41,793 bases of DNA from Lutibacter sp. Lineage in GTDB: Bacteria > Bacteroidota > Bacteroidia > Flavobacteriales > Flavobacteriaceae. Every line of letters starts with the position of its first letter. Position 1 is the first letter of the stretch. The notes beneath the pieces are model-generated. The model was not told the origin of the DNA, did no database searches, and saw nothing but the letters and a program-made list of their open reading frames with translations. Below are positions 7,096 through 23,437 of the stretch, one piece after another. The stretch covers positions 1-41,793 of the forward strand of contig NZ_WTAR01000118.1 in NCBI RefSeq assembly GCF_013139515.1, read 5' to 3'. The position numbers were made by a program, and so were the translations under genes.

Positions 7096-9558
7096 TTATA
7101 AGTTTAACAAAATAGAAAGTGAAACATTACGTCCTGGTGAACTAATTGCTGATGCAAATTCTTTATAATGCACATCAAAAATATTATCAATATTCATAAA
7201 TAATGTAATATTATTTTTTAGTTTATAGTTGGTGTTAAAGTTAAATATACTCCAACCAGGATTTCCGTAATAAGTATCTGTAATACTATTGTACGGTGTT
7301 TGTTCTTCATTATCAATTCCTGCAATTAAATTATAATCTTTTATGTCTTTTTTAGCATTAAATTTCCAAAGAAAAATAGTTTGTAAACGGTCGTTTTGAT
7401 AACCTATTTCAATATCTCCAAATAATGGTGGAATAGATGATAATGGTAAATTAGTATCGTATGCTTTTCCTTTCGTGTACGTTAAAGAACCTTTTGTAAA
7501 CCAATTTGCACTTAAATACCCTTTAAAACTAAAAGTGCTTCCAACTATATAAGCGTTGTTTTTATTAACATTAGCCATTACATTACCTTCTTCGCCATTG
7601 TAAACAATTGTTGTTGAATTATTTATTTCAAAAAAATCACGTGTAATATAATTATCTAAAAGTGTGTAATACACATTTAAACCTGTATGAAATTTTCGAT
7701 TATTAAAATACCTAACTGCTCCAGTCTCAAAACTATAAGCGTATTCAGGTTTTAAATTAATATTTGGTACAGTAACATTTCCTGATTTTTCTCTAACTTT
7801 TCCCACATCATCAATATTAGGTGATCTAAATCCTGATGAAATAACACTGTTTAATTGCCATTTTACAGTTGGTTTATATACATAACCTAATGTTGCTGTT
7901 ATTGCTGAATTATGAAGAGATATATCAGGTTTTGGTAACGTTATAAATGTATCATCAATCCATTTTGCAGTAAGTATTGTATTGCTTAACCTTATTCCTG
8001 TATTTAAGGTTGATTTACTACTAATATCTTGTCTGTAATTTACATAAGATGCGAAACTTGTGTAAGTACTTCCACCATCTGGATAACGAGATTGTTCAAT
8101 AAATTGATTACTAAAACCAACAACCGTATTTCCTTCAACTTCTAAAGTTCTACCAAAAGCATTAGAGTTTACTTTGTTGTGCGTAACTTCAAAACCATAC
8201 GACATAATTCTGTCGTTAGATGTTGTTATTGGAACAAAAAAATCTCCGTTTAAACTTAATACATCTAAATTTTCAAAACTATAATAACGATCTAAACTAG
8301 AAAATCTTCTATCAATTCTAGATTCTTTAATATTTTGAAAAGCAGCTGTTATTGTTCCTTTTTGAAGCCATTTTTTAGAAGGGTTTATTTTTAGCTGTGA
8401 AGAAAGTAATACTCTTTTTTGAGGTCCATAATACCATTCTGCATATTTTAATTTGTCATCAAAATACGTTGCTAAATTATCAAACCTATTTATATTTGAT
8501 GAAGTTGAATATTGAAAATTAAATAAAAGCTCGGTTTTTTTAGAAAGTGGAATTGTAATTTTTTGTAAAACATCCGTTTGGTTATAATCTGTATTTTCTT
8601 GAGTATTCACATTTGAATTTGTTACTGAATTTTCAGTATAAAACGTATTTGTATTTGTTGAATAATCAAAAACTTTTCCCCAATCTTCAAAACCATGTGT
8701 ACGGTTTTTACCCATTTTTAAGTTTCCAAACTCGCTGTAAGAAATACTGGTGTAAGATGCCCATTTTTTATTTCTAAGTTCAATATTTCCTTCAGTAGTA
8801 AATTCATTATTAACTGAGCTAAAACGAGAATATAGCGATGTATTTACTTGATTAACATTAGTTGTTGTTACTTTTGGTGTTTTGGTATAATAATGTACAA
8901 CACCACCTAATGCATCTGAACCATAAATTACCGATGAAGGGCCAAAAATAACTTCAGTTCTTTCAATAATATTTGGAGAAACTGTTATTGAATTTTGTAA
9001 ATGCCCAGTTCTATAAATTGCATTGTTCATTCGTACACCATCTACCACTAATAAAACACGATTGGCTTCCATTCCTCTTAATACCGGGCTTCCACCACCT
9101 GCTTGTGTTTTCTGAACTTTAATACCTGGTAAACTAGCCAGTAAATCGGCTGATGTTTGTGGCGCTAATTTTTTAATTTCTTCTTTTGAAATAATATCAA
9201 TTTGCTCGGCAACTCTACTTCTACTTTCTTTTCCTTTTGAAGCTGATAAAACTATTTCATTTAGTCGTTCAGATTTTTTATTTAAATACACAACAAACTC
9301 TATTATCCCCAAGTTTTTTTTTAAAATTTCATATTCTATAAACGCTAAGTGATTGAACGAAATAACATCAGAATTTGAAAACGCTGTTAAATCAGCAATT
9401 CCTTTTTTATTTGTGTAAACTACCGTATTATTTGAATCGTTATAAATGGTAACATTTTCAATAGGGAAATTAGATTCACGTTCCAAAACTTTTACTTGTT
9501 GAGCTTGTAATGAAACTGATAGCAATAAAAAAATTATTATAACACGTAATACCCTCAT
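7096..9558 (-). CDS. TonB-dependent outer membrane receptor, haemoglobin/haem type
   Basis: An outer membrane beta-barrel that imports a ligand using TonB energy. A signal peptide (about 1-19) is followed by a carboxypeptidase-regulatory-like beta domain (about 20-105), a plug (about 118-230) and a 22-strand-type barrel to the C-terminus. The plug contains GGGSPVLRGMEANRVLLVVD, VRMNNAIYRTGHLQN and FGPSSVIYGSDALGG, the pattern of HmuR/haemoglobin-type receptors. The ligand call is by similarity only, and no haem lyase, HmuY or siderophore gene is adjacent. It is the last gene of the porZ-recO run, 2 bp after recO. The barrel ends in Leu rather than the usual Phe. Confidence 0.85.
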   Translation of the reverse strand: MRVLRVIIIFLLLSVSLQAQQVKVLERESNFPIENVTIYNDSNNTVVYTNKKGIADLTAFSNSDVISFNHLAFIEYEILKKNLGIIEFVVYLNKKSERLNEIVLSASKGKESRSRVAEQIDIISKEEIKKLAPQTSADLLASLPGIKVQKTQAGGGSPVLRGMEANRVLLVVDGVRMNNAIYRTGHLQNSITVSPNIIERTEVIFGPSSVIYGSDALGGVVHYYTKTPKVTTTNVNQVNTSLYSRFSSVNNEFTTEGNIELRNKKWASYTSISYSEFGNLKMGKNRTHGFEDWGKVFDYSTNTNTFYTENSVTNSNVNTQENTDYNQTDVLQKITIPLSKKTELLFNFQYSTSSNINRFDNLATYFDDKLKYAEWYYGPQKRVLLSSQLKINPSKKWLQKGTITAAFQNIKESRIDRRFSSLDRYYSFENLDVLSLNGDFFVPITTSNDRIMSYGFEVTHNKVNSNAFGRTLEVEGNTVVGFSNQFIEQSRYPDGGSTYTSFASYVNYRQDISSKSTLNTGIRLSNTILTAKWIDDTFITLPKPDISLHNSAITATLGYVYKPTVKWQLNSVISSGFRSPNIDDVGKVREKSGNVTVPNINLKPEYAYSFETGAVRYFNNRKFHTGLNVYYTLLDNYITRDFFEINNSTTIVYNGEEGNVMANVNKNNAYIVGSTFSFKGYLSANWFTKGSLTYTKGKAYDTNLPLSSIPPLFGDIEIGYQNDRLQTIFLWKFNAKKDIKDYNLIAGIDNEEQTPYNSITDTYYGNPGWSIFNFNTNYKLKNNITLFMNIDNIFDVHYKEFASAISSPGRNVSLSILLNL

Positions 9559-9560
9559 AA

Positions 9561-10277
9561 TTAATCAAATACCGACTTTAAGATAGCTAATGATTTTGGT
9601 TTTTTAAAGCCCCCCAAATGTAATTCAAAATATTGAATTAAAATAGCCAATATTGCTTGTCTATTAGCCGCATTAAAATCAATAGTATGTAAAACATCAA
9701 AGTTTATGCCTAAGAGCTTTTTAAATTGCACTAAATTACTGCCAGAAACAGTAGTTGGCTTTTTAACGTTTGTAAAAGTTCCTTCTAACAAATCAAAATA
9801 TAAAGCGTTTATATTAGTAGTCTCGGGATAAAATCCTAAAAATTTAGTTAGGTTTAATAAAAAAAGTAAATGAAAATTTGAAATATTAGTATGTGTATCT
9901 AACCATAAAAATGAAGTTTCTAAATATTGAAATAAGGTGCTGTTTTGCTCTTCTTCACGAATTGAATAATATATGGTTTCAGCTAAAAATAAGGCGATTG
10001 TCTGCTTTTTAATATCGGTATAAATAGAGCTGTAAAAATTTAAAACTTCAATATCTCTAACAGAATTTAAGTTTCCTTTATTATTGTGATTGGCTGTTAA
10101 ATTAAGTTGCATTAAAGGCTGAAAATATGCGGGTTTAATTTTAGCTTTTTTGGCTGTTAAAACACCTTTAAGCATATATACTTTTATCCCACAATTTTTT
10201 GTGTAACACGTAGCTATTAAACTAGTATCTCCATATTTAATAGTGTTTATAACTATTGCCTTGGTAGTTTCAATCAT
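9561..10277 (-). CDS. recO: DNA repair protein RecO
   Basis: RecO works with RecF and RecR to load RecA on SSB-coated DNA in recombinational repair. The start MIETTKAIVINTIKYGDTSL forms the N-terminal OB-fold signature, and a helical C-terminal part follows, with 238 residues in total as expected for Bacteroidota RecO. The zinc-binding cysteines of some RecO proteins are not seen as a cluster. The gene begins 3 bp after the porZ-like gene and ends 2 bp before the TonB receptor, so the three genes form one operon. Confidence 0.93.
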   Translation of the reverse strand: MIETTKAIVINTIKYGDTSLIATCYTKNCGIKVYMLKGVLTAKKAKIKPAYFQPLMQLNLTANHNNKGNLNSVRDIEVLNFYSSIYTDIKKQTIALFLAETIYYSIREEEQNSTLFQYLETSFLWLDTHTNISNFHLLFLLNLTKFLGFYPETTNINALYFDLLEGTFTNVKKPTTVSGSNLVQFKKLLGINFDVLHTIDFNAANRQAILAILIQYFELHLGGFKKPKSLAILKSVFD

Positions 10278-10280
10278 TTT

Positions 10281-12578
10281 TTAATTAATAATTGCAATTT
10301 TTGCCACCTTAGTTTCTAAATTATCTTTTGTAATTAGTAGTACAATATATATCCCTGACGCAACTTTAGTGCCCGCTAAATTTGTTTTATTCCACACTAC
10401 TTTTCCTCCAAACAATTCTTGTCCTTCTTTTGTATTTGTTTCATAAACTAAGTTTCCTGCAGCATCTAAAATTTTAATATTTGTGTCTTTGGGTAAATGC
10501 GCACCGTTTCTTCCGTCAATAGTTATAAATTCGTTATCTTTTGTTGAAGGATTTGGGTAAGTGTAAACTTCGGGTAAACTAGTACCGTATAAAGAAACAT
10601 TACTATTAAAGGCTACAATTCCTTTGTCTGTTGCAAAGTATACTTTACCAGAATTGTTATCAATGGTAATTTTTAAAATATTATTTGAAGGTAACGGAGA
10701 ATTATCTTTATTGAAGTTTTTTAATGTTGTATCACCAGCTGGTGTTGTTTGAAGTGTTCCCCCAACCTCAGTACCAAACCACTTATTATCAGCTCCATCA
10801 ATAGCAATAGTGTTGATTGTTTGCTCTCCTAATAATTTTTTTGGAATACCATCATCTAAAATAATTACTGGCTCAGCATCAATAATTGTTGAATTAAAAA
10901 TATTGGCTGCGTTATAAAAAACAACCAACCCTTTTTTTGTTCCAATCCAAATTCTATTGTTAGCATCTACTTTAATTGATCGTACATTTAAATCAGGTAA
11001 AGCTCCTTTAGTTTGTTCGGTTGTTAAAGACTTTTTATTTGTACCATTTTCATTAAAAACCAAAGCTCCGTTTCTTCTAGAACCAATCCAAATATTGGTT
11101 GTTTTATCAATTTCTAGTTCATTTAAACCAAAAGCTGGATTTGTAATTACAGTACTCATATCAAAACTAGACCAAGCTCCGCTACTAGTATACTTTTTAA
11201 CTCTATCTTCAACCCAAGCATTTGCTATCCATAAATTTCCTTGGTTATCAAATGCTGAGCCATTTATTCTTGTACTAATATAACTTGGATTTGGAAAATC
11301 CAGTTTTTCTAAACCGCTATTTGTATGGTTCCAATGTGTTGTTAAAACATCGTCTTCAACAATTATCATTCCTCCACCCCACGAACTAATATATACTTTA
11401 TTTTCATGTATTGGGTCAAAAGTAATGTTCACCAAATCACTTACTCCTATTTCAGAATACTGTGTGTTTAACCAATTAGAACCATTAAAATGACTATAGC
11501 CTGCTCTTCTTCCTAATGGACCATATGCTGCATTATAACCTCCGTAAACAACCCAAAGATTATTATTGTTTGTAGCTATTGAAAACGCAAAATTAGATAC
11601 TGGCCCTGCTGGATGAATTTCTTCAAAATTAGAAATATTGTTTAGAGTGCTTTTTAATATTCCAAATTCTTTAGTTCCTAAATACAGTGTGTTTTCTTCA
11701 AAAAAAGCTGTATTTAAATTAAAATAAAACAAATCGGTTGAAGTTGTTGTGTGATTCAATATTTCTATATTGCTTATATCATTTACATACACACTTCGTA
11801 AAGTGCTAATAGTTAAAAAATTGGTTGTAGCTTTTAATTTCTTTATGGTTGAAGAATAATTTTTTTGAAGAACAAGTGTATTATTTTCAACTATTGATAA
11901 CGTGCGGTTATTGGATACAAAAACTTGATTATTAAATACCTCAACAGTTGTATAAGATCCTGAAGAATGTTGTGTCCAGTTATTAAAGTCTATTAAATTA
12001 GGGTTTGTTATATCTGCAGTATAAATACCATTTTGTGTAACTGCATAAATATTATTTTGGTGGATTTTAATTTGATTTATTTCTATTTCAGAAGATTGAT
12101 TTCCAATAAAATAAGTATCACCAAATTGAAGGTTTTCAATATCGTAAACAACAATGGCAAATGAAGTAGATAAGTATAACTTGTTATTATATTCTGTAAT
12201 ATCATTAATTTGCTTACTACCCGAATAACTAAAGTTCACAATATCTTTAGCTATTGTAATTTCGTTGTTACTATCAATTATTTCTAACATTCCTGTTTCA
12301 TAACCAATAATAACTTTTTTAAAAGTGTTGCTGTAATATAAGCTTGTTGTTGTTTCACCTGAAAGACCATTTACTGAAGAAATTTTAGTTACTTCGTTTG
12401 TTAATGTATTATAAGTGAAAAGCGCATTATCTACAATTGCATAAATTTGATGATCTGTTTTTACAAAGTCTTTAACATTATTGTAAGAATAGAAATCTTC
12501 CCAACTATTTGAATAATCAATTTGTGAGTATATAGAGTTAATGAAAAGAAAAATAAATAGTTGAATAAGTTTTTTCAT
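10281..12578 (-). CDS. porZ: PorZ-like beta-propeller protein with type IX sorting domain
   Basis: Predicted cell-surface component of the type IX secretion system. In Porphyromonas, PorZ takes part in attaching anionic LPS to T9SS cargo. A signal peptide (about 1-18) is followed by two long beta-propeller regions with repeated blades ending in NNIWIGSRRNGA-like and NRIWIGTKKGL-like strands, as in two-component-regulator propellers. The C-terminus is a type A sorting domain (YTYPNPS start at about 675, ending KVAKIAIIN). The 765 residues match PorZ length, and the recO neighbour is common in flavobacteria. It could also be a generic propeller protein exported by T9SS, so the symbol is tentative. 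Confidence 0.75.
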   Translation of the reverse strand: MKKLIQLFIFLFINSIYSQIDYSNSWEDFYSYNNVKDFVKTDHQIYAIVDNALFTYNTLTNEVTKISSVNGLSGETTTSLYYSNTFKKVIIGYETGMLEIIDSNNEITIAKDIVNFSYSGSKQINDITEYNNKLYLSTSFAIVVYDIENLQFGDTYFIGNQSSEIEINQIKIHQNNIYAVTQNGIYTADITNPNLIDFNNWTQHSSGSYTTVEVFNNQVFVSNNRTLSIVENNTLVLQKNYSSTIKKLKATTNFLTISTLRSVYVNDISNIEILNHTTTSTDLFYFNLNTAFFEENTLYLGTKEFGILKSTLNNISNFEEIHPAGPVSNFAFSIATNNNNLWVVYGGYNAAYGPLGRRAGYSHFNGSNWLNTQYSEIGVSDLVNITFDPIHENKVYISSWGGGMIIVEDDVLTTHWNHTNSGLEKLDFPNPSYISTRINGSAFDNQGNLWIANAWVEDRVKKYTSSGAWSSFDMSTVITNPAFGLNELEIDKTTNIWIGSRRNGALVFNENGTNKKSLTTEQTKGALPDLNVRSIKVDANNRIWIGTKKGLVVFYNAANIFNSTIIDAEPVIILDDGIPKKLLGEQTINTIAIDGADNKWFGTEVGGTLQTTPAGDTTLKNFNKDNSPLPSNNILKITIDNNSGKVYFATDKGIVAFNSNVSLYGTSLPEVYTYPNPSTKDNEFITIDGRNGAHLPKDTNIKILDAAGNLVYETNTKEGQELFGGKVVWNKTNLAGTKVASGIYIVLLITKDNLETKVAKIAIIN

Positions 12579-12645
12579 AAGTTATTCAAATATATTTATT
12601 AAAAACGGAATAAGGAAAGTATTATTTACAATTAAACTTTATTGC

Positions 12646-12691
12646 AAAAAAAAACCTTGAACATTGTAATTCGAATATACAATGTTCAAGG
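12646..12691 (-). terminator. Strong rho-independent terminator of the candidate small RNA
   Basis: Perfect 14-bp inverted repeat (12655-12668 ccttgaacattgta and 12678-12691) with a 9-nt loop. It is followed on the minus strand by nine T (A run at 12646-12654). The T run is on one side only, so it stops leftward transcripts. The nearest leftward gene on the right already has its own terminator at 12951-12989, which implies a separate transcript in between. Confidence 0.85.
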
Positions 12692-12766
12692 AATAAATAA
12701 ATCAACCCCAAAGACTTATTTAATGTTTTGATGTATAACGCCAAAACCCCTCTTGACATAAATACA
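12646..12766 (-). ncRNA. Candidate small RNA with its own promoter box and terminator
   Basis: A leftward unit of about 120 nt has a perfect -7 box just upstream (12770-12777) and a strong terminator at its end (12646-12691). Between them the RNA contains GTTTTG...CAAAAC arms around GCGTTATACAT and two GGGGTT segments. An ORF from ATG at 12759 (MSRGVLALYIKTL...) would run straight through the terminator hairpin to 12622, so protein coding is unlikely. The element may belong to a conserved flavobacterial RNA such as the Flavo-1 class, but I could not test this. A direct-repeat pair lies 54 bp upstream of the box. Confidence 0.5.
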
Positions 12767-12769
12767 AAA

Positions 12770-12777
12770 CAAATATA
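12770..12777 (-). promoter_or_regulatory. -7 box of the candidate small RNA
   Basis: TATATTTG on the minus strand matches TAnnTTTG exactly. No -33 TTTG lies 18-20 bp upstream, which fits a promoter that needs an activator. A direct-repeat pair (12832-12860) begins 54 bp upstream. Confidence 0.5.
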
Positions 12778-12831
12778 GTATAGTTAATGATTACTTTATT
12801 AAAAAATAAACAAAAATCTTTAAAAAATATA

Positions 12832-12860
12832 TAAATGGTAGGTAATTATATGTAAATGGT
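12832..12860 (-). promoter_or_regulatory. 21-bp-period direct repeat, probable LytTR regulator site (site A)
   Basis: On the minus strand ACCATTTA occurs twice (12853-12860 and 12832-12839) with 13 bp between, a 21-bp period. LytTR regulators bind such tandem half sites on one face of the helix; the E. coli BtsR site is ACC(G/A)CT(C/T)A-N13-repeat, and the half site here differs from it at one position. The site is upstream of the small-RNA promoter box. Confidence 0.6.
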
Positions 12861-12950
12861 AATTGTTTAATATCTGCTTTACACAAATAATATAGTTAGC
12901 ATTTACAGTATTAGTGTTTGTTCTCACTAATTTGGCAGTTTCTTAAAAAT

Positions 12951-12989
12951 AAAAAAGGATATTATAGTTAAACTATAATATCCTTTTTT
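12951..12989 (-). terminator. Bidirectional-type terminator after the 76-codon gene
   Basis: Inverted repeat ggatattatagtt / aactataatatcc (12957-12969 and 12971-12983) flanked by A6 on the left and T6 on the right. It ends leftward transcription 31 bp after the stop of the small gene at 13020. Confidence 0.8.
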
Positions 12990-13019
12990 AATGAAGGTTT
13001 TATTAAAAATCTATACCTA

Positions 13020-13250
13020 CTAGAAATTTACAACTTCAACAGAACTAAAGCCCCAAGAAAATGCATTTCTTGTATAAACTACTTTTTTAACATTGTCTTC
13101 ATTGTTAAATTTAATCATTCTAACAAAAACTGTCTCTTTTATATTTTGACAAACACTACCTAAACCAATAAACCTGATTGAATTATCAGTATTATTAATA
13201 TCCCTAAGGATTTTATTATCAGATGGTGTTAAGAAATTTAAGATAGACAT
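13020..13250 (-). CDS. Small protein of unknown function (76 aa), downstream of LytTR-type site
   Basis: I do not recognise this protein. It starts MSILNFLTPSDNKILRDIN and has no signal peptide, no membrane segment and a single Cys. The C-terminal half (VFVRMIKFN...VYTRNAFSWGFSSVEVVNF) looks beta-rich. Support for a real gene comes from its surroundings: a near-consensus -7 box 27 bp before the ATG, a direct-repeat pair 54 bp further upstream and a terminator 31 bp after the stop. It lies downstream of the LytS-type kinase in the same direction, so it may be a target or accessory of that system. Function cannot be stated. Confidence 0.65.
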   Translation of the reverse strand: MSILNFLTPSDNKILRDINNTDNSIRFIGLGSVCQNIKETVFVRMIKFNNEDNVKKVVYTRNAFSWGFSSVEVVNF

Positions 13251-13277
13251 AGTGTTAGTTATTAGTATATTAAAACA

Positions 13278-13285
13278 CTAAAGTA
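13278..13285 (-). promoter_or_regulatory. -7-like box of the 76-codon gene
   Basis: TACTTTAG on the minus strand matches TAnnTTTG at five of the six fixed positions and lies 27 bp before the ATG. The distance to direct-repeat site B is 54 bp, the same as between the small-RNA box and site A. Confidence 0.45.
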
Positions 13286-13339
13286 GTTAACTTAAACTTA
13301 ATTTTTTCTTAAAATTTACAAACACATTTAAAAAAACTG

Positions 13340-13368
13340 TAAATGGTTTAAATTACCTAATAAATGGT
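13340..13368 (-). promoter_or_regulatory. 21-bp-period direct repeat, probable LytTR regulator site (site B)
   Basis: On the minus strand ACCATTTA occurs at 13361-13368 and 13340-13347 with a 13-bp spacer, the same half site and period as site A. Both half sites are preceded by an extra A (AACCATTTA). The site begins 7 bp after the stop of the histidine kinase gene and lies upstream of the 76-codon gene. Confidence 0.6.
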
Positions 13369-13375
13369 TATTTAG

Positions 13376-14701
13376 CTATTTTAAAGGGAAGGTAATCGTA
13401 ACTTTAGTTCCTGTTGTAGTTTCATTAGAAATATCTTTTGTTTCAATTTCTACACCTTTATTTTGGTGTAACATTCTAATTCTGTTCTCAGTAGCTTCAG
13501 CGCCTAAAAATTTACGTCGTTCTGAAATATGAGTTACTTTTTTATTCTTATTAATACCAATACCATTATCAAGTATCGTACAAATTACATTCTCGTTTTC
13601 TTCTTTAATAGTTAGTTCAATAAATTTTTCTCCTTCTACTTTCATAATTCCATGCCAAATAGAATTCTCAATAAATGGTTGTAAAAATAAAGTTGGAACT
13701 TTTATACTATCTAAATCTAGGCTTTCATCAACAGTAACAATATATTCAAAACCTCCTGAAACACGCATTTGTTCAAGCTTAACATAAAGCGCTAAAATAG
13801 ATAACTCTTCTGAAAGTGTAGTTGTTGGACTTGACGAACTATTTAATATAACTCTTATCAATTTTGAAAACTTTGTAATATAATCTGATGCTTTTTCTAC
13901 TTCGCTTTTAATTACAAAATTATTAATAGAATTTAAAGAATTGAACAAAAAATGAGGGTTCATTTGACTTTGAAGTGCGGTCATTTTAAGCTCTTCCATC
14001 TCTTTTAACTTTAAAGCAAGTCTTACTTCAGCATTTTTACTTTTGTCTTGAATTCTTTTAATAATAAATCCTATAATTACTGAAAATATAATACATTGAA
14101 GAATTGCTCCTAAATACACAAAAAACATTGGTTGAACTCCTAAACTTGTAAAAAAATCAGGCCCTGTAAAAACTTCAACAAAGCTAATATTTGCTAAAAG
14201 CACATAAATTAACGATCCTGCAACAAAAATATAGGAAGAACTATCATTAATAGTTTTTACAATATTATAATAAGCTAATAAAGCTGCAATTGTTAAAAAA
14301 GGAACTACCATTATAAAAGCCTTTGTTTGAAAAGCTTCACCTAAAAATAATTGAATTACTATAAAAACACCAGCCAAAAGTAATAATACATTTGTCCCTA
14401 TTTCTAAATACTTGTCCCATTTTATTAAATAAGCTCTGGTATCTAACAATTCTCTTGCAAAAGCAACATAGGCTGCATATGCTAAAAATTGTATTGCGTA
14501 ATTAATGTAATTATAAAACCCGTCAAATTTACCAGAAACAACTGGTTGTATTAAGTAAATTGTTAATGCTAATAAATACAAACTGTAGTATAAGTACATT
14601 TTGCTTTTATTCTGAAAAAAAATCAAAAAGTGGTATATGAATAAAACGAAAAGACCTCCTCGTATCCAAGAAAATATTTCAGAATGAAAATCTAACAGCA
14701 T
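13376..14701 (-). CDS. LytS/YehU-type sensor histidine kinase with 7TM input domain
   Basis: Sensor kinase of the His_kinase/HATPase type that partners LytTR regulators. The first ~215 residues form about seven membrane helices like the 7TMR-DISM membrane part, without the extracellular ligand domain those receptors often carry. A short helical linker (about 215-243) leads to QSQMNPHFLFNSLNSINNF with the phospho-accepting His250. The ATP-binding part has ENSIWHG (N box, about 340) and ILDNGIGI (G1 box, about 371). The gene starts 3 bp after the LytTR regulator gene, so the two are one operon. The signal it senses is unknown. Confidence 0.92.
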   Translation of the reverse strand: MLLDFHSEIFSWIRGGLFVLFIYHFLIFFQNKSKMYLYYSLYLLALTIYLIQPVVSGKFDGFYNYINYAIQFLAYAAYVAFARELLDTRAYLIKWDKYLEIGTNVLLLLAGVFIVIQLFLGEAFQTKAFIMVVPFLTIAALLAYYNIVKTINDSSSYIFVAGSLIYVLLANISFVEVFTGPDFFTSLGVQPMFFVYLGAILQCIIFSVIIGFIIKRIQDKSKNAEVRLALKLKEMEELKMTALQSQMNPHFLFNSLNSINNFVIKSEVEKASDYITKFSKLIRVILNSSSSPTTTLSEELSILALYVKLEQMRVSGGFEYIVTVDESLDLDSIKVPTLFLQPFIENSIWHGIMKVEGEKFIELTIKEENENVICTILDNGIGINKNKKVTHISERRKFLGAEATENRIRMLHQNKGVEIETKDISNETTTGTKVTITFPLK

Positions 14702-14704
14702 TCT

Positions 14705-15445
14705 TTAATCTAGGTATAATTTTTTAAACAATTCAGCTTTTCTATTTCTACTTATACTTGCTGTTAAGCCATTTGTCATAATTAATTCTCCACCTAAACC
14801 TTTTAAATATTCTTTAATATGGTTTAAATTAATTAAGTAAGAATTATGAACTCTAAAAAACTCAGGAAATTGAAATTTTTTCTCAACTTCTTTTAATGTT
14901 TTTGAAACCAAAATTTGTTGTTCAGATTTTAAGTAAATTGTAGTATAACTTTTATCAGACTTTAACATTACAACATCGTCTTTATCTAGTAAATAAACTT
15001 TACCATCAGCTGAAATGTTAATTTTATCGTTATTATTATCACTTAAGTTATTTAATAATAATTGTAATTTATTTTCAAGTAAACCTCCTTTTTTAGATGT
15101 TTCTATTTTTTCCATTGATGCTAATAACTCATCTTTATCAACAGGTTTTAATAAATAATCTATGGCTGAAACTTTAATTGCTTTTAGTGCAAACTCATCA
15201 TGTGCAGTGGTGAAAATTAGATTAAAATCTCTATTCTCTAATTTCTCAATCATAGTAAAACCATCCATTTCAGGCATTTGTATATCTAAAAATACCACAT
15301 CAGGTTTTAGCTCATTAATAATATCAATGGCTTTAATAGGCGAGTTACACGTTGTAACCTCTATATCTTTTATGTAATTATTTAATTTCCATTCAAGAGC
15401 TTCTAAAGCATCTTTTTCGTCATCAACAAGTAAAATTTGTAGCAT
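14705..15445 (-). CDS. LytTR family response regulator
   Basis: A two-domain DNA-binding regulator of 246 residues. The receiver has the acidic pair at D8-D9, the phospho-acceptor D54 in VFLDIQMPEMDG, the conserved Thr in FTTAHDE and Lys in LLKPVDKDELL. The LytTR domain occupies about 140-245 and includes FFRVHNSYLINLNHI, the usual conserved stretch. It is the first gene of the operon with the kinase. LytTR proteins bind tandem half sites about 21 bp apart, which is what is seen at 12832-12860 and 13340-13368, so those are its most likely targets. No such repeat is seen before its own gene. Confidence 0.94.
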   Translation of the reverse strand: MLQILLVDDEKDALEALEWKLNNYIKDIEVTTCNSPIKAIDIINELKPDVVFLDIQMPEMDGFTMIEKLENRDFNLIFTTAHDEFALKAIKVSAIDYLLKPVDKDELLASMEKIETSKKGGLLENKLQLLLNNLSDNNNDKINISADGKVYLLDKDDVVMLKSDKSYTTIYLKSEQQILVSKTLKEVEKKFQFPEFFRVHNSYLINLNHIKEYLKGLGGELIMTNGLTASISRNRKAELFKKLYLD

Positions 15446-15487
15446 ATTTAATGTGTGGACGTTAAGTTATTTTCCATGATTTTAAGT

Positions 15488-15518
15488 GCAAGATACAACT
15501 TTTGAATAAACAGTCAAA
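15488..15518 (-). promoter_or_regulatory. Promoter of the LytTR-kinase operon
   Basis: On the minus strand TTTG (15515-15518), a 19-bp spacer and TATCTTGC (15488-15495, four of six fixed -7 positions) lie about 43 bp before the regulator start. The -33 element almost touches the stop of the pbpC gene at 15523. Confidence 0.45.
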
Positions 15519-15522
15519 AAAG

Positions 15523-17865
15523 TTAGTATCTTATTTCAACTCCCCTATTAATCTCGTTTCCAAGTTCGTCAATTGCAGTTATTAAATATTTTCCTTTTTT
15601 AGGTAACGTTTCTATTTCATGAATATTTTTAGTTTGCCCAATAAATTTATTATTTAAATACCAAAACACCTTTATATTAGGTGTTGAATGCACTATTTTT
15701 AATAGCAAACTATTGTAATTTCCTTCAAAGTTTTTTGTCAAATAAATAGTTATGTTTTCACTTGGAAAAACAAATTCCATTTGAGATTTTTCTTCACTTA
15801 AACAGTCTAATCTGTAGCTTGGTAATTTTTTATAAAGTGGGTTCATTTTCTGATAATAAAACTCTTGTAACGGTGGTAAAACAAACCAACTTTTGTGAGT
15901 TATGTTCTCTAATGATTCACACGATGAGTTTACTTGAAATTGCTCATTTTTATCTAAATGAACCCAAATATGGTATGGACAAGGTTTTGTTTTCAATCCT
16001 GTTTGTTGTACAAAAACTGTATCTTTTATTTCACAAATTTCGTTTGATCTATAACCACTTTTACTACAAATTTCTACTTCTCTTAATTCGTCAAAAGGAA
16101 TTTCAAACCATTTACTTTTAGGTAAAATATCAAATACATTAAATAATATTGGAGCTGCTGCAGAAAGCCCAACCAATCCTGGCCTTCCTTCACCATCTGC
16201 ATTTCCAACCCAAACACCAACAACATAGTCTTTTGTAGTTCCAATAGCCCAGGCATCCCTAAACCCAAAACTTGTGCCTGTTTTCCAAGCAATTTTATTT
16301 GATGAATCAAAAAATTGCCAATTTTCTTCACCTTCCGGTCTATTTACCTTGTTTAATGCCTCAAAAGTTAAATAGGTTGAGCCAGCGTCAAAAATTGTTT
16401 TTTCACGTGAAACTTCACCAAAATTTGGGTTAAAATTTGCCAAATATGAAGGCTCTATAAATTCATTTTTATAATATTTTCCTTGTGTATCATCATAATG
16501 ATTTATAGTTGAAGCCATTGAAGCGTAGCTTTTGCATAAATCCCATAAATTACTTTCAGCACCTCCTAAAATTAACGACAAACCATAATGGTTCGCATTG
16601 TATTTTACATCTTTTAGATTTAGTTCTTTTAAATAATGATGAAATCTATCCAAACCAAAATTTTGTAACATTCTAACTGCTGGTACATTTAACGATTTAG
16701 ACAAAGCGGTACTTGCAAAAACAGCTCCGTCATATTTTTTATTGAAATTTTGCGGATTGTAACTTCCTATTTGTGTTGGCACGTCTGCAATCAACGTATT
16801 TGGTAATATATCACCTGCATCTAGCATAGCAGCATATAAAAATGGTTTTAAAATACTTCCTGTACTTCTTGGTTTGTTAATAATATCAACATCTTTATGA
16901 TGAGTTACTGTAGTTGGGGAATTTCCAATATACGCTAAAACTTGTCTGGTTTTTACATCTAAAACCAATACAGCAATGTTGTTTATTTGATTTTTATTTA
17001 ACTCATTATAATGGTTTTTTACAATTGAATTTACGCGTTGTTGCAATTCTATTTTAATAGACGTTTTTACATTTTTACCTTTCTCGGCTTTTGCTACATT
17101 TTGTAATAAATGAGGTGCAATTTGAGGAATTCTATATGGTTTTTGTGGTAATTCTTCTTCAATGGCTAATTGATACGTTAGTGTATCAATAATTTTCTCT
17201 GTAAATAGTTTTTTCAATAACCGGTTGCGTTTTAAAACTAATTTTTGTTGATTTTTTCCCGGATAAATTAAACTTGGTGCATTTGGTAAAACAGCCAAAG
17301 TTGCACTTTCAGCCCAAGAAAGTTCATTTGGTAACCGACCAAAATAACGCCAAGAAGCAACATCTAATCCAATTACATTTCCTCCAAAAGGCGCATTTGA
17401 TGCGTACAATGATAAAATTTTTTCTTTTGAATATCTTAATTCTAATCGTGTTGCTACTATTATTTCTTTTAGTTTTTCAAAATAGGTTCTTTTTTGATTT
17501 TTCCGAGATAAACGAATAACTTGCTGTGTAAGTGTACTTCCACCACGTTTTACACGTTTAAATTTAAAATTTTCGTAAAATGCTTTTACAATTGAAACCG
17601 GATTAAACCCTGGATGTTTATAAAAATATGCATCTTCAAATTGTACAATACATTCCTTAAATTTTTGCGGTACACTATCATTATGTGGAAATCTCCATTG
17701 GCCATCATCAGCAATTTTAGCACCTAATAATTCTCCTTCAACACTCTCAATTACTGTTGAAGTTGGATTATTAAATAATTGTTTTGGTAACGAAAAATAA
17801 TAAGCCGTTAAAAGTATAACGGCTATTATTAATTTGTATTTATGTTTATATAAATAAGGTTTCAT
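15523..17865 (-). CDS. pbpC: Penicillin-binding protein 1C (bifunctional glycosyltransferase/transpeptidase)
   Basis: A membrane-anchored class A penicillin-binding protein of 780 residues that polymerises and may cross-link peptidoglycan. After one N-terminal membrane helix (about 12-26) comes the GT51 domain with catalytic Glu77 in FEDAYFYKHPG and GGSTLTQQ. The transpeptidase follows, with the SxxK motif S337-I-L-K340 and the KTG motif at 528-530. A C-terminal BiPBP_C-like beta domain (about 690-780) marks the PbpC subgroup. It starts 1 bp after the alpha-2-macroglobulin gene, the same pairing as in E. coli, where the two are thought to act together in periplasmic defence and wall repair. 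Confidence 0.95.
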   Translation of the reverse strand: MKPYLYKHKYKLIIAVILLTAYYFSLPKQLFNNPTSTVIESVEGELLGAKIADDGQWRFPHNDSVPQKFKECIVQFEDAYFYKHPGFNPVSIVKAFYENFKFKRVKRGGSTLTQQVIRLSRKNQKRTYFEKLKEIIVATRLELRYSKEKILSLYASNAPFGGNVIGLDVASWRYFGRLPNELSWAESATLAVLPNAPSLIYPGKNQQKLVLKRNRLLKKLFTEKIIDTLTYQLAIEEELPQKPYRIPQIAPHLLQNVAKAEKGKNVKTSIKIELQQRVNSIVKNHYNELNKNQINNIAVLVLDVKTRQVLAYIGNSPTTVTHHKDVDIINKPRSTGSILKPFLYAAMLDAGDILPNTLIADVPTQIGSYNPQNFNKKYDGAVFASTALSKSLNVPAVRMLQNFGLDRFHHYLKELNLKDVKYNANHYGLSLILGGAESNLWDLCKSYASMASTINHYDDTQGKYYKNEFIEPSYLANFNPNFGEVSREKTIFDAGSTYLTFEALNKVNRPEGEENWQFFDSSNKIAWKTGTSFGFRDAWAIGTTKDYVVGVWVGNADGEGRPGLVGLSAAAPILFNVFDILPKSKWFEIPFDELREVEICSKSGYRSNEICEIKDTVFVQQTGLKTKPCPYHIWVHLDKNEQFQVNSSCESLENITHKSWFVLPPLQEFYYQKMNPLYKKLPSYRLDCLSEEKSQMEFVFPSENITIYLTKNFEGNYNSLLLKIVHSTPNIKVFWYLNNKFIGQTKNIHEIETLPKKGKYLITAIDELGNEINRGVEIRY

Positions 17866-17866
17866 G

Positions 17867-20800
17867 TTACTTCACAACTTCAATCCACTGTCCTTTTGTA
17901 CGTGTAAAAAACTCATTATCGTACATAGCTTCTGCCTGCACGCCATATAAATAATAATTTCCTAGATACGATGCATTTAACTGAACTTTAAATGTTTTTG
18001 TTTCATTCTTATTTAAATTGAAATAGAAATTTACTCTATCATCTCTTATATCTGTAAAATTAGCACTACCTACAGTTGTTGTTCCAAAATCTGTAAATCG
18101 TGTATTTACTATTTCCCAACCTGAAGGGAAAATTTCTGTTAAGGCAATATCATGAACTTCACTAACTTTTAAATTTTGAACAGTTACCCATGCTTCAAAC
18201 TCGGTTCCTTGTGATAATTTAGAAATATCAATACTATTTCCTTGCGTATCTTTATAAGCTACTTTCACACCTAAACCACGTTTTTCAGCAATCTCTTCAC
18301 CTAGAGGTAAAATTCCTGAATTAAGCACATTAACAAAAACTAAATTCGCATCATTATTAGTAATGGTTATTGAATTTTCACCTTCTTTTATACTTAATTT
18401 TCGTTGTGCAATTGAAAATTTAGAATTTACACTTTCTTGTTTTCCTTCATTTAAATTATAAGTGAGTTTAATTGATTTTCCTCCATTAATTTCAACCATT
18501 TTAGCCATTGAAAGTAAACTATACGCAGTTGTTTGAGTACTCATCCATGATTTTGATGATAATCTTTTTGCAATATATTTTGCCAATTCTCTAGACTCTG
18601 AATTTCCAGTTAACAACATTGTTTCTAGTGCCATTGCTCTATTTCTATCAACCGAACCGTATGTGTAATAATCGTATTTAACAGGTTTAAAATTAATATT
18701 TGCCGTATTAGACACTTTTGTTGCTGCTTCTTTTTGACCTGCCAAAGCATACGCAGCAGCTAAACGCCATTTTGCATCGTTTGAAATTTCTTTAAACTCA
18801 CGCAATCTATTCATTGAAGATAAATCTGGATGACCAGCCAAAGCCAATGTATATAATCTATACGCTTGTGCTAAATCTGAATTGTAATATTGATAACTTG
18901 GTCTCCAATTACGAGCAGCTTGCTTTTGGTATTTTAACCAATTACTCATAAAAGTAAGTGGTAAAACATATCCTTTTTTCTCGGCTTCAATCATAAAATG
19001 ACCAGCATAACTTGTTCCCCAATCGTTTGCTGAATTTTGTCCCATCCAATAACTTAAACCACCACTTGAGGTTTGAAAATTACCTAACCTTTCAATTCCT
19101 TTTTTAACATTGTTAGTCATTTCTTGTTTCTTCTGAACTGATAAATCAAAAATATTTCCTAAATACAACTGTGGAAAGACACTTGATGTTGTTTGCTCAA
19201 CACATCCGTGTGGATATTGAATTAAATACTGCAATCTTCCTGCAAAATCCATTGACGGCAATGTTGAAAATTCTATTTGTGCGGTATTACTTCCTTTTAT
19301 TCCGAAAGTTGAAAAATCAATTTTTTGTGTAGCTTTTGCTTCTAATTCTACTGAAGTAGATTTTGAAGATACCGGATTTGGATTTACAACATCTATTTCA
19401 ACTTCATAAGAAGATTTTTCTCCGTTTCCTGAAGCTATTACTTCAATTTTAGCAATTCCTTTTACATCAGAAACATCTAATTGAAAATACGCCATTTTCT
19501 CATCAGGAGTTGTAAATGTTAACTTTTGAGAATTTACACCTACAACTTTAATTCCATTGCTTAATTTCAACTGAACCTCAACATTTTTTACTTTCTTTTC
19601 CATGGCAAAAACAGTCACAGGTAGAGTTACTTTTTCTCCCGGACTTAATTTACGAGGTAAAGATGCTAAAACCATTAACGGTTTACGAACTGGAGTAGTT
19701 TCTTCGACTTTTCCATAAGCGCCTTTTGAATTATCAGCAGCAATTACCATTGTTCTTACTGAACCAATATATTTTGGTAATTGAACTGTATGTTTTGCTG
19801 TTTTTCCTTTTTTAAGCGTAAAAGGTCCTAAATAACGAACTACAGGTTTAAACCTATTTGCTTTTTTGTTTTTACCAGCTGCTGCATCTCCATCTCCTCC
19901 AATGGCAAAAACTTGTTCAATACTTCCTCCAAAAGCACCAATTACATCATCAAAAATGTCCCAGGTTTTAACTCCTAATGCTTCACGCGTGTAAAAAGCA
20001 TCCCAAATTCTTGGTGTTTTAAAACGAGTTAAATCCAATAAACCTTCCTCAACAATAGCAATGGTATACGACATTCGTTTGCCATTTTTCTCACTAACTT
20101 TTAACGTGAATTTTTCTTCAGGTTTCAATACTTTTGGCATTGAAATTTCAGGTTCTAAACGTGTGGTTGGGTCTTCAACCAATATTGGAATTACACCATA
20201 TAAACGCAACGGTAAATCGTTTGCTGTTGAAGCGTGTGGTTGTAACAATGAAATGTTTATAAACACATTTGGTGTCATTTCTTTAGTAATCGGAATTTGA
20301 ACGGTTGTTTCACCTTTTTGAGTTTTTTGCCAAACAGTTTGCAATACTTCTGTTCCATTTTCAATGCTTATTAAGGCTCTTCCTTCAGTTCCTGAAGGAA
20401 ATGTAATAATTGCTGTTTCTCCAACATTATACCTATCTTTATCTGAAGAAAATACCAACATTTTTGATGCTTCAGGGTCATTTGAAGGTCGTTTCCACCA
20501 ATTTTTATAGAAATATGTTGTTGTACCTGTTGCGTGACCACTTTCTTTATCTATTACTTTTATTAAATATCTTCCTCCATCATCATCGGGAATATTTAGT
20601 GTAAAAGTTCCTTTTCCTGTTGAATTGGTGCTGGTTTTTAATTTTTTATACGATTTATGATAACTACTTCCATTATATGATGATATATTATCATACGATG
20701 AACTCCACCACCAACGCCATTCCATTTTATAAACGACTACTTCAATATTATTTTTTGATAAAGGTTTTCCTTCTGAAGAAATTGTAGCAATATCAAATGT

Positions 20801-23437
20801 GATATTTTCATCTGTATCATACGAACTATACGCTTTTGTTTTTGGTGATTTTAATCCAACAAATGAAGTGTATGGTGCGTAATTTTTTGAAATTACATCC
20901 ATAGAAAAATCGCCACCGTTTTCATAAGCTTTGGTTAAAAATGCTGCTTTTAGCATTCCAGGTGCGTTATTTTCTAAACTTACTTTTTTGTTAATTGTAG
21001 CATTTCCATTTTCATCTAATTTTGCATCAAAAACAATTACTTCTTCAGAAGAAAATTCTTTTGTTGGATCATTAAAAACATAGTTTGGATATTGCTTATT
21101 AAATGCTGTTGAGTTTGAAGTAAACTTAGCATTAACTTCAACCTTAATGTTTTTTGCAAGTGCACCGTGTAACCACTTAACATCTAATTTTCCATTTATA
21201 GATTTGTTATTGGTTAACACCTCATCATCAAAATCAATTTTAATTTTTAAGCGGTTTGGTTTTACACTTTCTACTTTTAATTGTTTGTGAAATTTTGCTC
21301 CTCCAACACTCACTATTCCATTCCAATTTCCAGTAGGATCTGTATCTGAAGTTGGAATTGTAAACTTGTAAAACCCATTTACATTGTTGGTTCTAATTTC
21401 TTTAAAAGCTAGTTTTCCACGAGCATCATTAACTTCTAATTTAACAGGATGTTCCTTTGGTAGCGGATTTGCATTGTCATTTAAAACAAATGTTAAATGA
21501 ATTGAATCTCCAGGTCTCCAAACACCACGTTCTCCATAAATAAAGCCTTTCAATCCTTTCTGTAATTTTTTTCCTGAAACATTAAATTTACTTAACGATA
21601 AAGAATGACCATCATCTAGTTTTACATACGTTTTATGTTTTCCGTTTGAAACAATTGCGAAAAAAGCATTTTTATCAACATCCATTCCCGTAAAACCTTG
21701 ATTGTCGGTTACTGCTTGTGCAATTTCTTGTTGTTGATAATTGTAAATAGTAACTTTTGCTCCAGAAACCGGATTGGTAGTTAAAATATCAGTTACTGCA
21801 AAAAAGTACGATTTATTTTCTCCTTTTTTGGCAATTACACCTAAGTTTGAAGCTAAAATATTTGTAGAAACTACTTGATCTTCATTATCGTAATACGCTT
21901 TTTTACAAGGGTCTTCTCTGTCTCTCCAATTGTAATAATTGTTGTTATAACTATAGATTAAATTGTCCCAATATTGTTCTTCTCGTTCGTCTAAATCATT
22001 GGCTTTCTCTGTTGTATATTCCTGATTACCGTAATAATAATCTTCTTCATAATATTCATCACCGTCACTTGAATTTATTTGAGTTCCTTCACATTTATAG
22101 AGAGAATATTCTTGTTTTATAGTAAGTTCAACTCTATAAATTGCTCCTGGATCTGCTTTTATCATTTTAGATAAATCTATCGCATACGCTTTCCATTTTC
22201 CGCTGTTTTCAATTTCATTATTAATTAAAGTCATAGTTTTTTTAGCCACTCTCCTACCAACTCTTTTAATATCGTATCTACTTGTACTTCCTAAATTGCT
22301 GTTTTGCAAAAATTGTAACACATTGTCTTCAAAAATTTTAATAATGCGTACATCAACCGCTTTTAAATTTACTGCTTCAAAATTAAATTTTAAACCGTTT
22401 GAACTTGGTAAAATTACACCGCTAGATAACAATCTTACAGCAGGTTTTAATTGTTGAAATGCTACTTTTTGTGAAAAAGCATTCTTCAATTTATAACCAT
22501 CAACACTTTTTATTCCTTGAAAAATAGCAACATTAACGCTACCCGAAACACGAACATTTGGATATACTTTTAATACATTTCCATCAACAACATATTTTAA
22601 ATTTTTAATAGTTTGAAGTTCAACTAAACCATTAAAATTTTGTTGTTTTTTAAGCGGATCAGAAAAATTAATAGTTAAATGTTGCTCAGGCAATTGAAAA
22701 ACATCAATACTCAAAATTGAAAAATTATTTTTACCTGGAATTCTTAATGAAGATTCACCTTCATTATCAACATTTATGTTATCTCCTGACCAAGAAAGTG
22801 TTACTTCAGAATCATCTTCAAAACGTTGAACACTATCTATTTTAAATTGAAATTGTGTGCTTATTGAATCTATACTTTCCCATTTAATAGCTAATTTTTT
22901 ATCATTTTGAATTGCTTTTATTAATGCTTTAGCTTTTTCTAATTCTAAAACATCAGCCGTTTTAATTTCACCTTCAATGTATTGCCATTCTTTATTGTAC
23001 GACTGAAAACTCGTAGTTACAACGTTGAAATTTTGTTCAACAGTTTTAAATTTGAAGGTGTATGTTTTAAATTCAGAAGGAATTGAAGCATATATTTCAC
23101 CTAAATTAACTGTTACAGTATACTCTTTATTTGGTTCTAAACTTTTTGAAGGTTGAAATAATAAACTTCGTGAATTTAATGCTGATAATTTACCTTCAAT
23201 TTTTGGTGAAATACTTATTGCTTTTTTTGAAACTTCTTCATTTGAAACCCAAGATTCAACTTCATTAACTAAATCAATTTTAATAGGTTCAGCAACTGAA
23301 ACTACACCTGAAGTTGTGTAGCCAATATGCTTTCTAAATTTAAAAATATTATTTGTTGTTTCTTGTGGGTTGTCATTTTTACATGACAAGAAAATCACAC
23401 TTACTAAAAGTGTAAAGATTAAATGTTGAAGTTTCAT
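17867..23437 (-). CDS. Bacterial alpha-2-macroglobulin lipoprotein with thioester motif
   Basis: A very large (1856 aa) periplasmic lipoprotein of the bacterial alpha-2-macroglobulin family (YfhM-like), thought to trap foreign proteases covalently. The lipobox FLSC puts lipidation at Cys19. MG-type beta domains fill the first ~1100 residues, with an MG2-like segment around 620-720. The thioester motif GCVEQ is intact (Cys1412, Gln1415), followed by an alpha/alpha toroid (about 1400-1680) and a C-terminal receptor-like beta domain. A DE/Y-rich stretch at about 450-510 looks like an insertion. Adjacent pbpC, 1 bp downstream, supports the assignment. Confidence 0.94.
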   Translation of the reverse strand: MKLQHLIFTLLVSVIFLSCKNDNPQETTNNIFKFRKHIGYTTSGVVSVAEPIKIDLVNEVESWVSNEEVSKKAISISPKIEGKLSALNSRSLLFQPSKSLEPNKEYTVTVNLGEIYASIPSEFKTYTFKFKTVEQNFNVVTTSFQSYNKEWQYIEGEIKTADVLELEKAKALIKAIQNDKKLAIKWESIDSISTQFQFKIDSVQRFEDDSEVTLSWSGDNINVDNEGESSLRIPGKNNFSILSIDVFQLPEQHLTINFSDPLKKQQNFNGLVELQTIKNLKYVVDGNVLKVYPNVRVSGSVNVAIFQGIKSVDGYKLKNAFSQKVAFQQLKPAVRLLSSGVILPSSNGLKFNFEAVNLKAVDVRIIKIFEDNVLQFLQNSNLGSTSRYDIKRVGRRVAKKTMTLINNEIENSGKWKAYAIDLSKMIKADPGAIYRVELTIKQEYSLYKCEGTQINSSDGDEYYEEDYYYGNQEYTTEKANDLDEREEQYWDNLIYSYNNNYYNWRDREDPCKKAYYDNEDQVVSTNILASNLGVIAKKGENKSYFFAVTDILTTNPVSGAKVTIYNYQQQEIAQAVTDNQGFTGMDVDKNAFFAIVSNGKHKTYVKLDDGHSLSLSKFNVSGKKLQKGLKGFIYGERGVWRPGDSIHLTFVLNDNANPLPKEHPVKLEVNDARGKLAFKEIRTNNVNGFYKFTIPTSDTDPTGNWNGIVSVGGAKFHKQLKVESVKPNRLKIKIDFDDEVLTNNKSINGKLDVKWLHGALAKNIKVEVNAKFTSNSTAFNKQYPNYVFNDPTKEFSSEEVIVFDAKLDENGNATINKKVSLENNAPGMLKAAFLTKAYENGGDFSMDVISKNYAPYTSFVGLKSPKTKAYSSYDTDENITFDIATISSEGKPLSKNNIEVVVYKMEWRWWWSSSYDNISSYNGSSYHKSYKKLKTSTNSTGKGTFTLNIPDDDGGRYLIKVIDKESGHATGTTTYFYKNWWKRPSNDPEASKMLVFSSDKDRYNVGETAIITFPSGTEGRALISIENGTEVLQTVWQKTQKGETTVQIPITKEMTPNVFINISLLQPHASTANDLPLRLYGVIPILVEDPTTRLEPEISMPKVLKPEEKFTLKVSEKNGKRMSYTIAIVEEGLLDLTRFKTPRIWDAFYTREALGVKTWDIFDDVIGAFGGSIEQVFAIGGDGDAAAGKNKKANRFKPVVRYLGPFTLKKGKTAKHTVQLPKYIGSVRTMVIAADNSKGAYGKVEETTPVRKPLMVLASLPRKLSPGEKVTLPVTVFAMEKKVKNVEVQLKLSNGIKVVGVNSQKLTFTTPDEKMAYFQLDVSDVKGIAKIEVIASGNGEKSSYEVEIDVVNPNPVSSKSTSVELEAKATQKIDFSTFGIKGSNTAQIEFSTLPSMDFAGRLQYLIQYPHGCVEQTTSSVFPQLYLGNIFDLSVQKKQEMTNNVKKGIERLGNFQTSSGGLSYWMGQNSANDWGTSYAGHFMIEAEKKGYVLPLTFMSNWLKYQKQAARNWRPSYQYYNSDLAQAYRLYTLALAGHPDLSSMNRLREFKEISNDAKWRLAAAYALAGQKEAATKVSNTANINFKPVKYDYYTYGSVDRNRAMALETMLLTGNSESRELAKYIAKRLSSKSWMSTQTTAYSLLSMAKMVEINGGKSIKLTYNLNEGKQESVNSKFSIAQRKLSIKEGENSITITNNDANLVFVNVLNSGILPLGEEIAEKRGLGVKVAYKDTQGNSIDISKLSQGTEFEAWVTVQNLKVSEVHDIALTEIFPSGWEIVNTRFTDFGTTTVGSANFTDIRDDRVNFYFNLNKNETKTFKVQLNASYLGNYYLYGVQAEAMYDNEFFTRTKGQWIEVVK

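Follow-up and report, generated by a model that had tools for sequence, protein, structure and literature searches.

A conserved small RNA beside a LytTR two-component system of Lutibacter, proposed to pair with translation start regions

Locus architecture

The present analysis concerns a LytTR two-component system, the small RNA gene that lies next to it and the tandem site pairs ahead of its two downstream units, all situated on the minus strand of a 41,793-nucleotide (nt) stretch of DNA from Lutibacter sp. (contig NZ_WTAR01000118.1, assembly GCF_013139515.1), which is referred to below as the window and represents contig C112 of a genome of 2.83 Mb. The response regulator of 246 amino acids (aa) at 14705-15445, the proposed activator, carries a receiver and a LytTR DNA-binding domain, both far over the cut-offs of the Pfam models (Response_reg 8.4e-24, LytTR 3.2e-20). 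Its score against the NCBIfam BtsR equivalog model was 151.8 bits, under the curated cut-off of 246. The adjoining gene (13376-14701) codes for a histidine kinase of the 7TMR-DISM/LytS type (441 aa; Pfam His_kinase 5.8e-24, 7TMR-DISM_7TM 5e-11), an orthologue of which was found in 35 of 38 Lutibacter genomes. Multiple copies of the kinase gene were observed elsewhere, three of them near each other in genome G217 (L182, L191, L192) and two as neighbours in G149 (L178, L190).

Two units follow the kinase gene. The first consists of a tandem site pair, ACCATTTA-N13-ACCATTTA, at 13340-13368, a weak -7 box at 13278-13285, a gene for a 76-aa protein at 13020-13250 and, behind it, a hairpin with a T run on both strands that is likely to be a terminator (12950-12990). 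The second contains the same exact site pair at 12832-12860, a -7 box at 12770-12777 and a small RNA of about 119 nt at 12648-12766, matched at 136.3 bits by a covariance model that includes its own row. Three predicted hairpins make up the small RNA: SL1 with a GGGG loop (12732-12766), SL2 with the loop UUUGGGGUU (12694-12722), and SL3, which together with a T run forms an intrinsic terminator (12648-12691).

Site pairs and promoter geometry

A preliminary description of this DNA had reported both exact pairs and a spacing of 54 base pairs (bp) between each pair and its box, and the positions and distances proved to be as described. The likeness that it had noticed between the two spacers was also borne out, with 34 of 54 ungapped positions in agreement, a value never reached when the mononucleotides of one spacer were shuffled 10,000 times. 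Of the two boxes, the one ahead of the small RNA reads TATATTTG; the one ahead of the 76-aa gene, TACTTTAG, is weak and only TAnnTTTG-like. At up to three mismatches the pair has five matches in the window against 2.06 expected, exact only at the two sites.

A genome-wide scan, which had been suggested as a check, was made with R at the fourth position. The pattern ACCRTTTA-N13-ACCRTTTA occurs exactly seven times in the own genome and its reversed control not at all; across the 38 Lutibacter genomes there are 69 exact occurrences against 12 of the control (row sums). Conservation of the pair beside the orthologous system, likewise suggested as a check, was seen in all 30 kinase-linked small-RNA promoters measured, where the distance from site to box is 54 bp in 26 and 53 bp in four (taking the best-scoring pair within about 140 nt and, where scores were equal, the one nearer to 54; 28 of the 30 pairs match at 13 or more of 16 positions). 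In a sample of 299 genomes of the family, the 15 genomes with a kinase match hold 13 pairs against one of the control, and the other 284 hold 34 against 27; the kinase match was defined by E<=1e-60 with at most five candidates scored per genome, so that kinases may be missed. The enrichment of site pairs is thus secure within Lutibacter, and the pairs look like binding sites of the adjacent LytTR regulator.

Conservation and structure of the small RNA

The small RNA was present after the orthologous kinase in 35/35 Lutibacter genomes with a kinase match (30 loci read first and five later), in each case as GAGGGGTTTTG followed by GGGGTTGATTTATTTA and a terminator downstream of the kinase gene. 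Both a promoter box and a terminator hairpin are present in the sequence of all of the first 30 loci. Folding of an alignment of 21 Lutibacter sequences with RNAalifold gave three hairpins, two with GGGG loops (GGGGUU) and the third being the terminator. Both sides have changed in six pairs of this alignment, of which the terminator holds five and SL1 the remaining one, and SL2 is invariant. Over ten sequences from six genus groups, two of them from one genome (G039), 94% of the cells of SL2 pair, compared with at most 53% when the alignment is slid.

The small RNA also occurs in several sister genera, where some copies have no SL1 and retain SL2 and the terminator; this shorter version was found in records labelled Urechidicola, Aureivirga, Lutibacter sp. 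and unclassified Flavobacteriaceae. Two copies are present in each of four records (L154, L159, L168, L170). Under strict filters the covariance model matched ten genomes of the family sample. In genome G155 the site and a homologue of the 76-aa protein are present and no GGGG was found within 1,500 nt after the kinase gene. Exact 20-mer matches in Metabacillus, Chitinophagales and a record labelled 'uncultured archaeon' (L125, L152, L164), as well as in L173, stand in unrelated contexts and were set aside. Rfam gave no match at the gathering score in the window, with sub-threshold rows only at 12550-13400. An ATG within SL1 is kept in 21 of 30 loci, the remainder having TTG (six), CTG, TCG or TAG (one each); the frame that it opens ranges from 14 to 56 codons, and therefore no long open reading frame (ORF) is conserved in the small RNA.

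Complementarity and co-variation downstream of a MarR gene

A search of named genomes with an exact 20-mer of SL2 found its complement also in leaders downstream of a MarR-family gene (Pfam MarR 9e-10). Because this route carries ascertainment, the MarR gene itself was then searched; it was matched in 31 of the 38 Lutibacter genomes, and 30 loci were read. Within the 800 nt past the MarR gene, the strongest 70-nt duplex with the small RNA ranged from -33.5 to -53.8 kcal/mol, with shuffle means of about -15 to -21. In 30/30 loci it was lower than the duplexes formed with the reversed small RNA (median -28.3), with its antisense (-21.0) or on the opposite strand (-27.5), and in 26 of them it lay more than 8 kcal/mol below the control with the reversed small RNA.

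The partner of SL1, CAAAACCC, is present in 27 of the 30 loci, and 26 of these 27 have a word like the SL2 partner in the preceding 45 nt and an ATG no more than 26 nt after. The putative ORF starting at this ATG is short and poorly conserved, and a gene for a CAP-domain protein follows in many genomes.

One position co-varies between the small RNA and this target, namely X (A or G) in GGGGTTTTG[X]C of the small RNA and its partner Y in G[Y]CAAAACCCC. All 21 genomes with a G-type small RNA have Y = C and none has T, whereas among those with the A type Y is T in five (G004, G006, G008, G012, G016) and C, a mismatch, in one (G020). Over the 27 genomes in which both were read Fisher's test gives p 7e-5, uncorrected for descent. 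The motif counted for G002 was CAAAACCCT, one of two candidate copies; not counted were G036 and G037 (A type) and G013 (G type), which have no motif, G027, which has no kinase match, and the genomes without a MarR match. For G012 the base was predicted before its small RNA was read, and the prediction held. On the kinase tree, G002 (G/C) and G016 (A/T) are supported sisters, between which the base and its partner have cleanly changed together. The remaining A/T genomes are distributed over three more groups with support, although the backbone of the tree is unresolved.

In the own genome, a start region on contig C16 (-57.8) and an RNA on C91 behind a reversed site (-56.6) form duplexes with the small RNA that were each reached by 0/200 shuffles, and the start of a CAP gene on C54 (-26.7) was reached by 3/200. 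Past the MarR gene, the own genome carries a repeated unit of about 260 bp (L231, contig C16), with three copies of a stretch resembling an SL2 complement and a GAGGTAG...CTACCTC-like element that relatives (L279-L308) have as well. No Rfam match was obtained in four of the repeat loci downstream of MarR.

Genes beside the other site pairs and their leaders

Around the 69 exact pairs of Lutibacter, with small-RNA cases excluded and an ORF allowed at up to 450 nt, the reverse direction holds an ORF for 47 pairs and the forward direction for 35, and the gene served by a given site is therefore often ambiguous. The boxes in the forward direction (30 sites) include seven at 53-54 bp, all of them small-RNA promoters, and ten at 91-94 bp, mostly before a PIG-L deacetylase gene, which may use a promoter of its own. 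In the reverse direction (25 sites) seven boxes lie at 30/31 bp, four at 41-43 and two at 52, clusters about one helical turn apart, and the other 12 are spread over 4-101 bp. Pfam domains were run for ten example site-linked genes. Those in the reverse direction are often secreted, and comprise an LRR protein, CAP lipoproteins beside an M3 peptidase gene and a protein with a Por secretion tail; those in the forward direction include a giant Ig/CHU_C protein (C15) and an OmpA-domain protein.

Among 5- and 6-mers occurring in at least six reverse-site leaders (the last 80 nt before the gene), AACCCC ranked first, being present in 21 of 41 such leaders and in one of 107 background genes; many of these genes are orthologues, which makes the p-values optimistic. 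With slightly different limits ACCCC was found in 20/37 reverse-site leaders against 4/111, and in 4/35 forward-site genes. Out of 36 matches to the M3-peptidase gene 30 loci were read, and a CAP gene lies within reach in 16, of which 14 have both a site pair (up to two mismatches) and ACCCC and two have neither; among the 14 loci without a CAP match the site pair occurs in one and ACCCC in three. In several of these leaders, predicted hairpin loops contain CCCC; a terminator-like hairpin follows, and AACCCC comes next, ahead of the ATG.

Other arrangements were observed near such sites. Four tandem half-sites at 21-bp steps, one of them mismatched, stand directly before a TPR/HisKA/HATPase histidine kinase gene (L015:7213-7283, own contig C71) and form the densest array noticed in the own genome. 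Ahead of the CAP gene, L199, L201, L214 and L225 have similar inverted repeats (type TTCAG-AGTG...TTTGCTAGTTA...CAC-CTGAATT). L022 (G003:C12) contains a unit of site, leader and OmpA-domain gene twice in tandem, and the duplication has preserved the site and both AACCCC motifs.

The 76-aa protein and neighbouring genes

The gene for the 76-aa protein is present in 7/30 Lutibacter loci and also in sister genera, with 18 distinct homologues. Its AlphaFold model contains a helix and a sheet of four strands (pLDDT 84.7); the protein has no Pfam match, and no family or clear structural relative was found for it. The protein is an optional passenger of the locus and not a core part. The preliminary description had seen here a compact four-part system of kinase, regulator, small RNA and 76-aa protein. 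Much of that view survives, in that the pairs resemble regulator sites, their geometry is kept and one unit is a conserved structured RNA; it is too narrow, considering the patchy presence of the 76-aa gene and the location of most of the 69 Lutibacter pairs away from the locus. It also overlooked that start regions elsewhere are complementary to the small RNA.

Downstream of the small RNA lies porZ of type IX secretion (10281-12578, minus strand; Pfam PorZ_N 6.7e-29), a neighbour for which no part in the system is claimed. Genes for PBP1C and a bacterial alpha-2-macroglobulin are paired directly upstream of the regulator (15523-23437, assigned by Pfam).

Proposed mechanism and alternative explanations

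We propose, with a probability of roughly 70%, that the LytTR regulator drives an antisense small RNA which pairs with translation start regions and works in the manner of agr and RNAIII. The features from which the proposal is built, i.e., the conserved site pair, the box and its spacing, the hairpins and terminator, the complementarity and the co-variation, are present in the DNA itself; from them we infer binding and activation by the regulator as well as pairing inside cells. The membrane sensor kinase and its regulator would switch on the small RNA, the activated regulator binding the ACCRTTTA-N13-ACCRTTTA repeats 53-54 bp before the promoter, as suggested by their conservation and position. 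The transcript is predicted to fold into the two conserved hairpins displaying GGGGUU loops, followed by the terminator, and these hairpins would base-pair with start regions bearing AACCCC. The strongest candidate target is the bipartite region downstream of the MarR gene, whose complementarity and co-varying position argue for pairing with both hairpins and which ends on or next to the ATG of the small ORF, the CAP-domain lipoprotein gene following in many genomes. Since the pairing reaches the ATG, a block of translation initiation would be the likely outcome. The regulator probably also acts, via sites of opposite orientation, on genes for secreted LRR, CAP and other surface proteins with AACCCC leaders, so that transcriptional and small-RNA control would meet on one surface-protein regulon, with the 76-aa protein as an optional extra output. 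In this manner the sensor system and its small RNA may convert an outside signal into an RNA signal.

A broader version, which we put forward tentatively and at somewhat less than even odds, would extend this to an RNA code of G-loops and C-leaders in Lutibacter and its sister genera. One LytTR system would transcribe the small RNA with its GGGGUU loops and, via opposite sites, both the AACCCC-tagged targets and terminator-ended decoy RNAs with C-loops (in the own genome those on C91 and C54), constituting an RNA feed-forward loop with built-in sponges in which AACCCC before the ATG serves as an address tag replacing the Shine-Dalgarno sequence.

Several observations weigh against the proposed antisense mechanism. 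Counted in the own genome at up to two mismatches, the antisense 14-mer barely exceeds its control (102 against 84), and for this reason the claim of pairing depends on the MarR locus and the site-linked leaders. Among the latter, the energy shift of reverse-site leaders is partly compositional, as the reversed small RNA also differs (p 7e-4), and in the own genome the duplexes of the C15 leader (-24.4) and of the C-loop RNA on C54 (-23.2) were reached by 14/200 and 48/200 shuffles. At the MarR locus, G020 breaks the co-variation, the SL1 partner is absent from 3/30 loci (G036, G037, G013) and a search of the 700 nt following the MarR gene gave no site pair. As for the RNA itself, the changes in SL2 are one-sided, without double compensation, and many of its copies might encode a 14-codon peptide.

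It is possible, if somewhat unlikely, that pairing activates its targets by freeing start regions, opening leader terminators or stabilising mRNA. The terminator-like hairpin located between promoter and gene in several CAP leaders behind sites would suit such a role, and in F. psychrophilum deletion of Rfp18 lowers two protease mRNAs (PMC9723704). Repression is favoured by the pairing at the MarR locus, which extends up to and into the ATG, where pairing of FopS represses in Bacteroides (PMC11697453).

The own genome contains 12 LytTR genes with an intact frame, a further point against the proposed activator, and the binder of the pairs is therefore named from adjacency. That another LytTR protein of the genome binds the sites, the kinase-regulator pair merely being a neighbour of the small RNA, appears unlikely all the same: kinase, site and small RNA occur together in 30/30 Lutibacter loci, and kinase and small RNA in 35/35. 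In favour of another binder are the array before the unlinked kinase gene on C71 and the weak co-occurrence of sites and kinase outside Lutibacter, which likewise counts against the proposed mechanism. Nine of the 13 pairs in kinase-match genomes of the family sample come from three Lutibacter genomes, seven of them from the own genome, and the 12 such genomes outside Lutibacter hold four pairs against one of the control, so that enrichment beyond Lutibacter is only suggestive.

CsrB works as a protein-titrating RNA. By analogy the small RNA and the site pairs might be real while the GGGG loops bind a protein, AACCCC then being a signal for translation or protein binding; two similar loops, invariant in 21 sequences, and the short complementarity in many AACCCC leaders agree with this, whereas the long complementarity at the MarR locus and the co-varying base outside the GGGG/CCCC core render it quite improbable. 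The complementarity might instead be a relic with no regulatory role today, left when the MarR-locus leader was duplicated in inverted orientation to give the small-RNA gene, or the other way round; the resemblance of the C16 start region and the C91 RNA to gapped complements of much of the small RNA could suggest this. It is highly improbable given that the SL1 partner persists, with matched base changes, in 27 of 30 loci, and that the kinases of these genomes, where one was found, share 64-76% identity with that of the window.

Comparison with known systems

Firmicutes offer well-known cases of LytTR regulators that control regulatory RNAs. VirR of Clostridium perfringens (VirR-VirS) is a LytTR regulator of VR-RNA. 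In the agr system of Staphylococcus aureus a LytTR-type regulator controls the adjacent regulatory RNA RNAIII, by which the output of surface and secreted proteins is set (PMC3673130). The locus studied here resembles both in combining a LytTR system with a regulatory RNA, adjacent in 35/35 genomes, and the resemblance is meant as an analogy with no claim of homology. It differs from them in the phylum, the class of kinase (here 7TMR-DISM) and the RNA, and no autoinducer gene was noticed: inspection by eye of the ORFs of 50 aa or more at 9000-19000 revealed neither agrB nor agrD, no dedicated search having been made.

BtsS/BtsR and YpdA/YpdB, whose tandem sites have a 21-bp period, are LytS/LytTR two-component pairs like the present one, and the regulator of the window falls under the cut-off of the BtsR model. 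These two systems control transporter genes and respond to pyruvate (PMC5552118).

Among small RNAs of Bacteroidota, FopS and GibS of Bacteroides thetaiotaomicron pair near start codons, as is proposed here, FopS doing so on the mRNA of a surface transporter, which makes repression at the start site plausible here; FopS differs in being multicopy and in using a single-stranded 5' seed, and no LytTR site figures in the available part of its account (PMC11697453). Rfp18 of Flavobacterium psychrophilum is likewise a conserved flavobacterial small RNA of strong structure that affects secreted proteases, and its loss can lower target mRNA; its pairing has been placed in a third stem-loop (PMC9723704). 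Searches of an open-licence library, together with passages of PMC5395568, gave no description of a LytTR-controlled regulatory RNA in Bacteroidota, which is not proof of absence.

If the proposed mechanism is true, surface and secreted proteins of flavobacteria would have a regulon that can be predicted, a promoter geometry and a pairing code open to test, and the small RNA and its target would be a natural case of co-variation. The loops of RNAIII face Shine-Dalgarno sequences, whereas the GGGG loops of Lutibacter would face AACCCC leaders, and the mechanism would illustrate a way of directing antisense RNAs to mRNAs that lack Shine-Dalgarno sequences.

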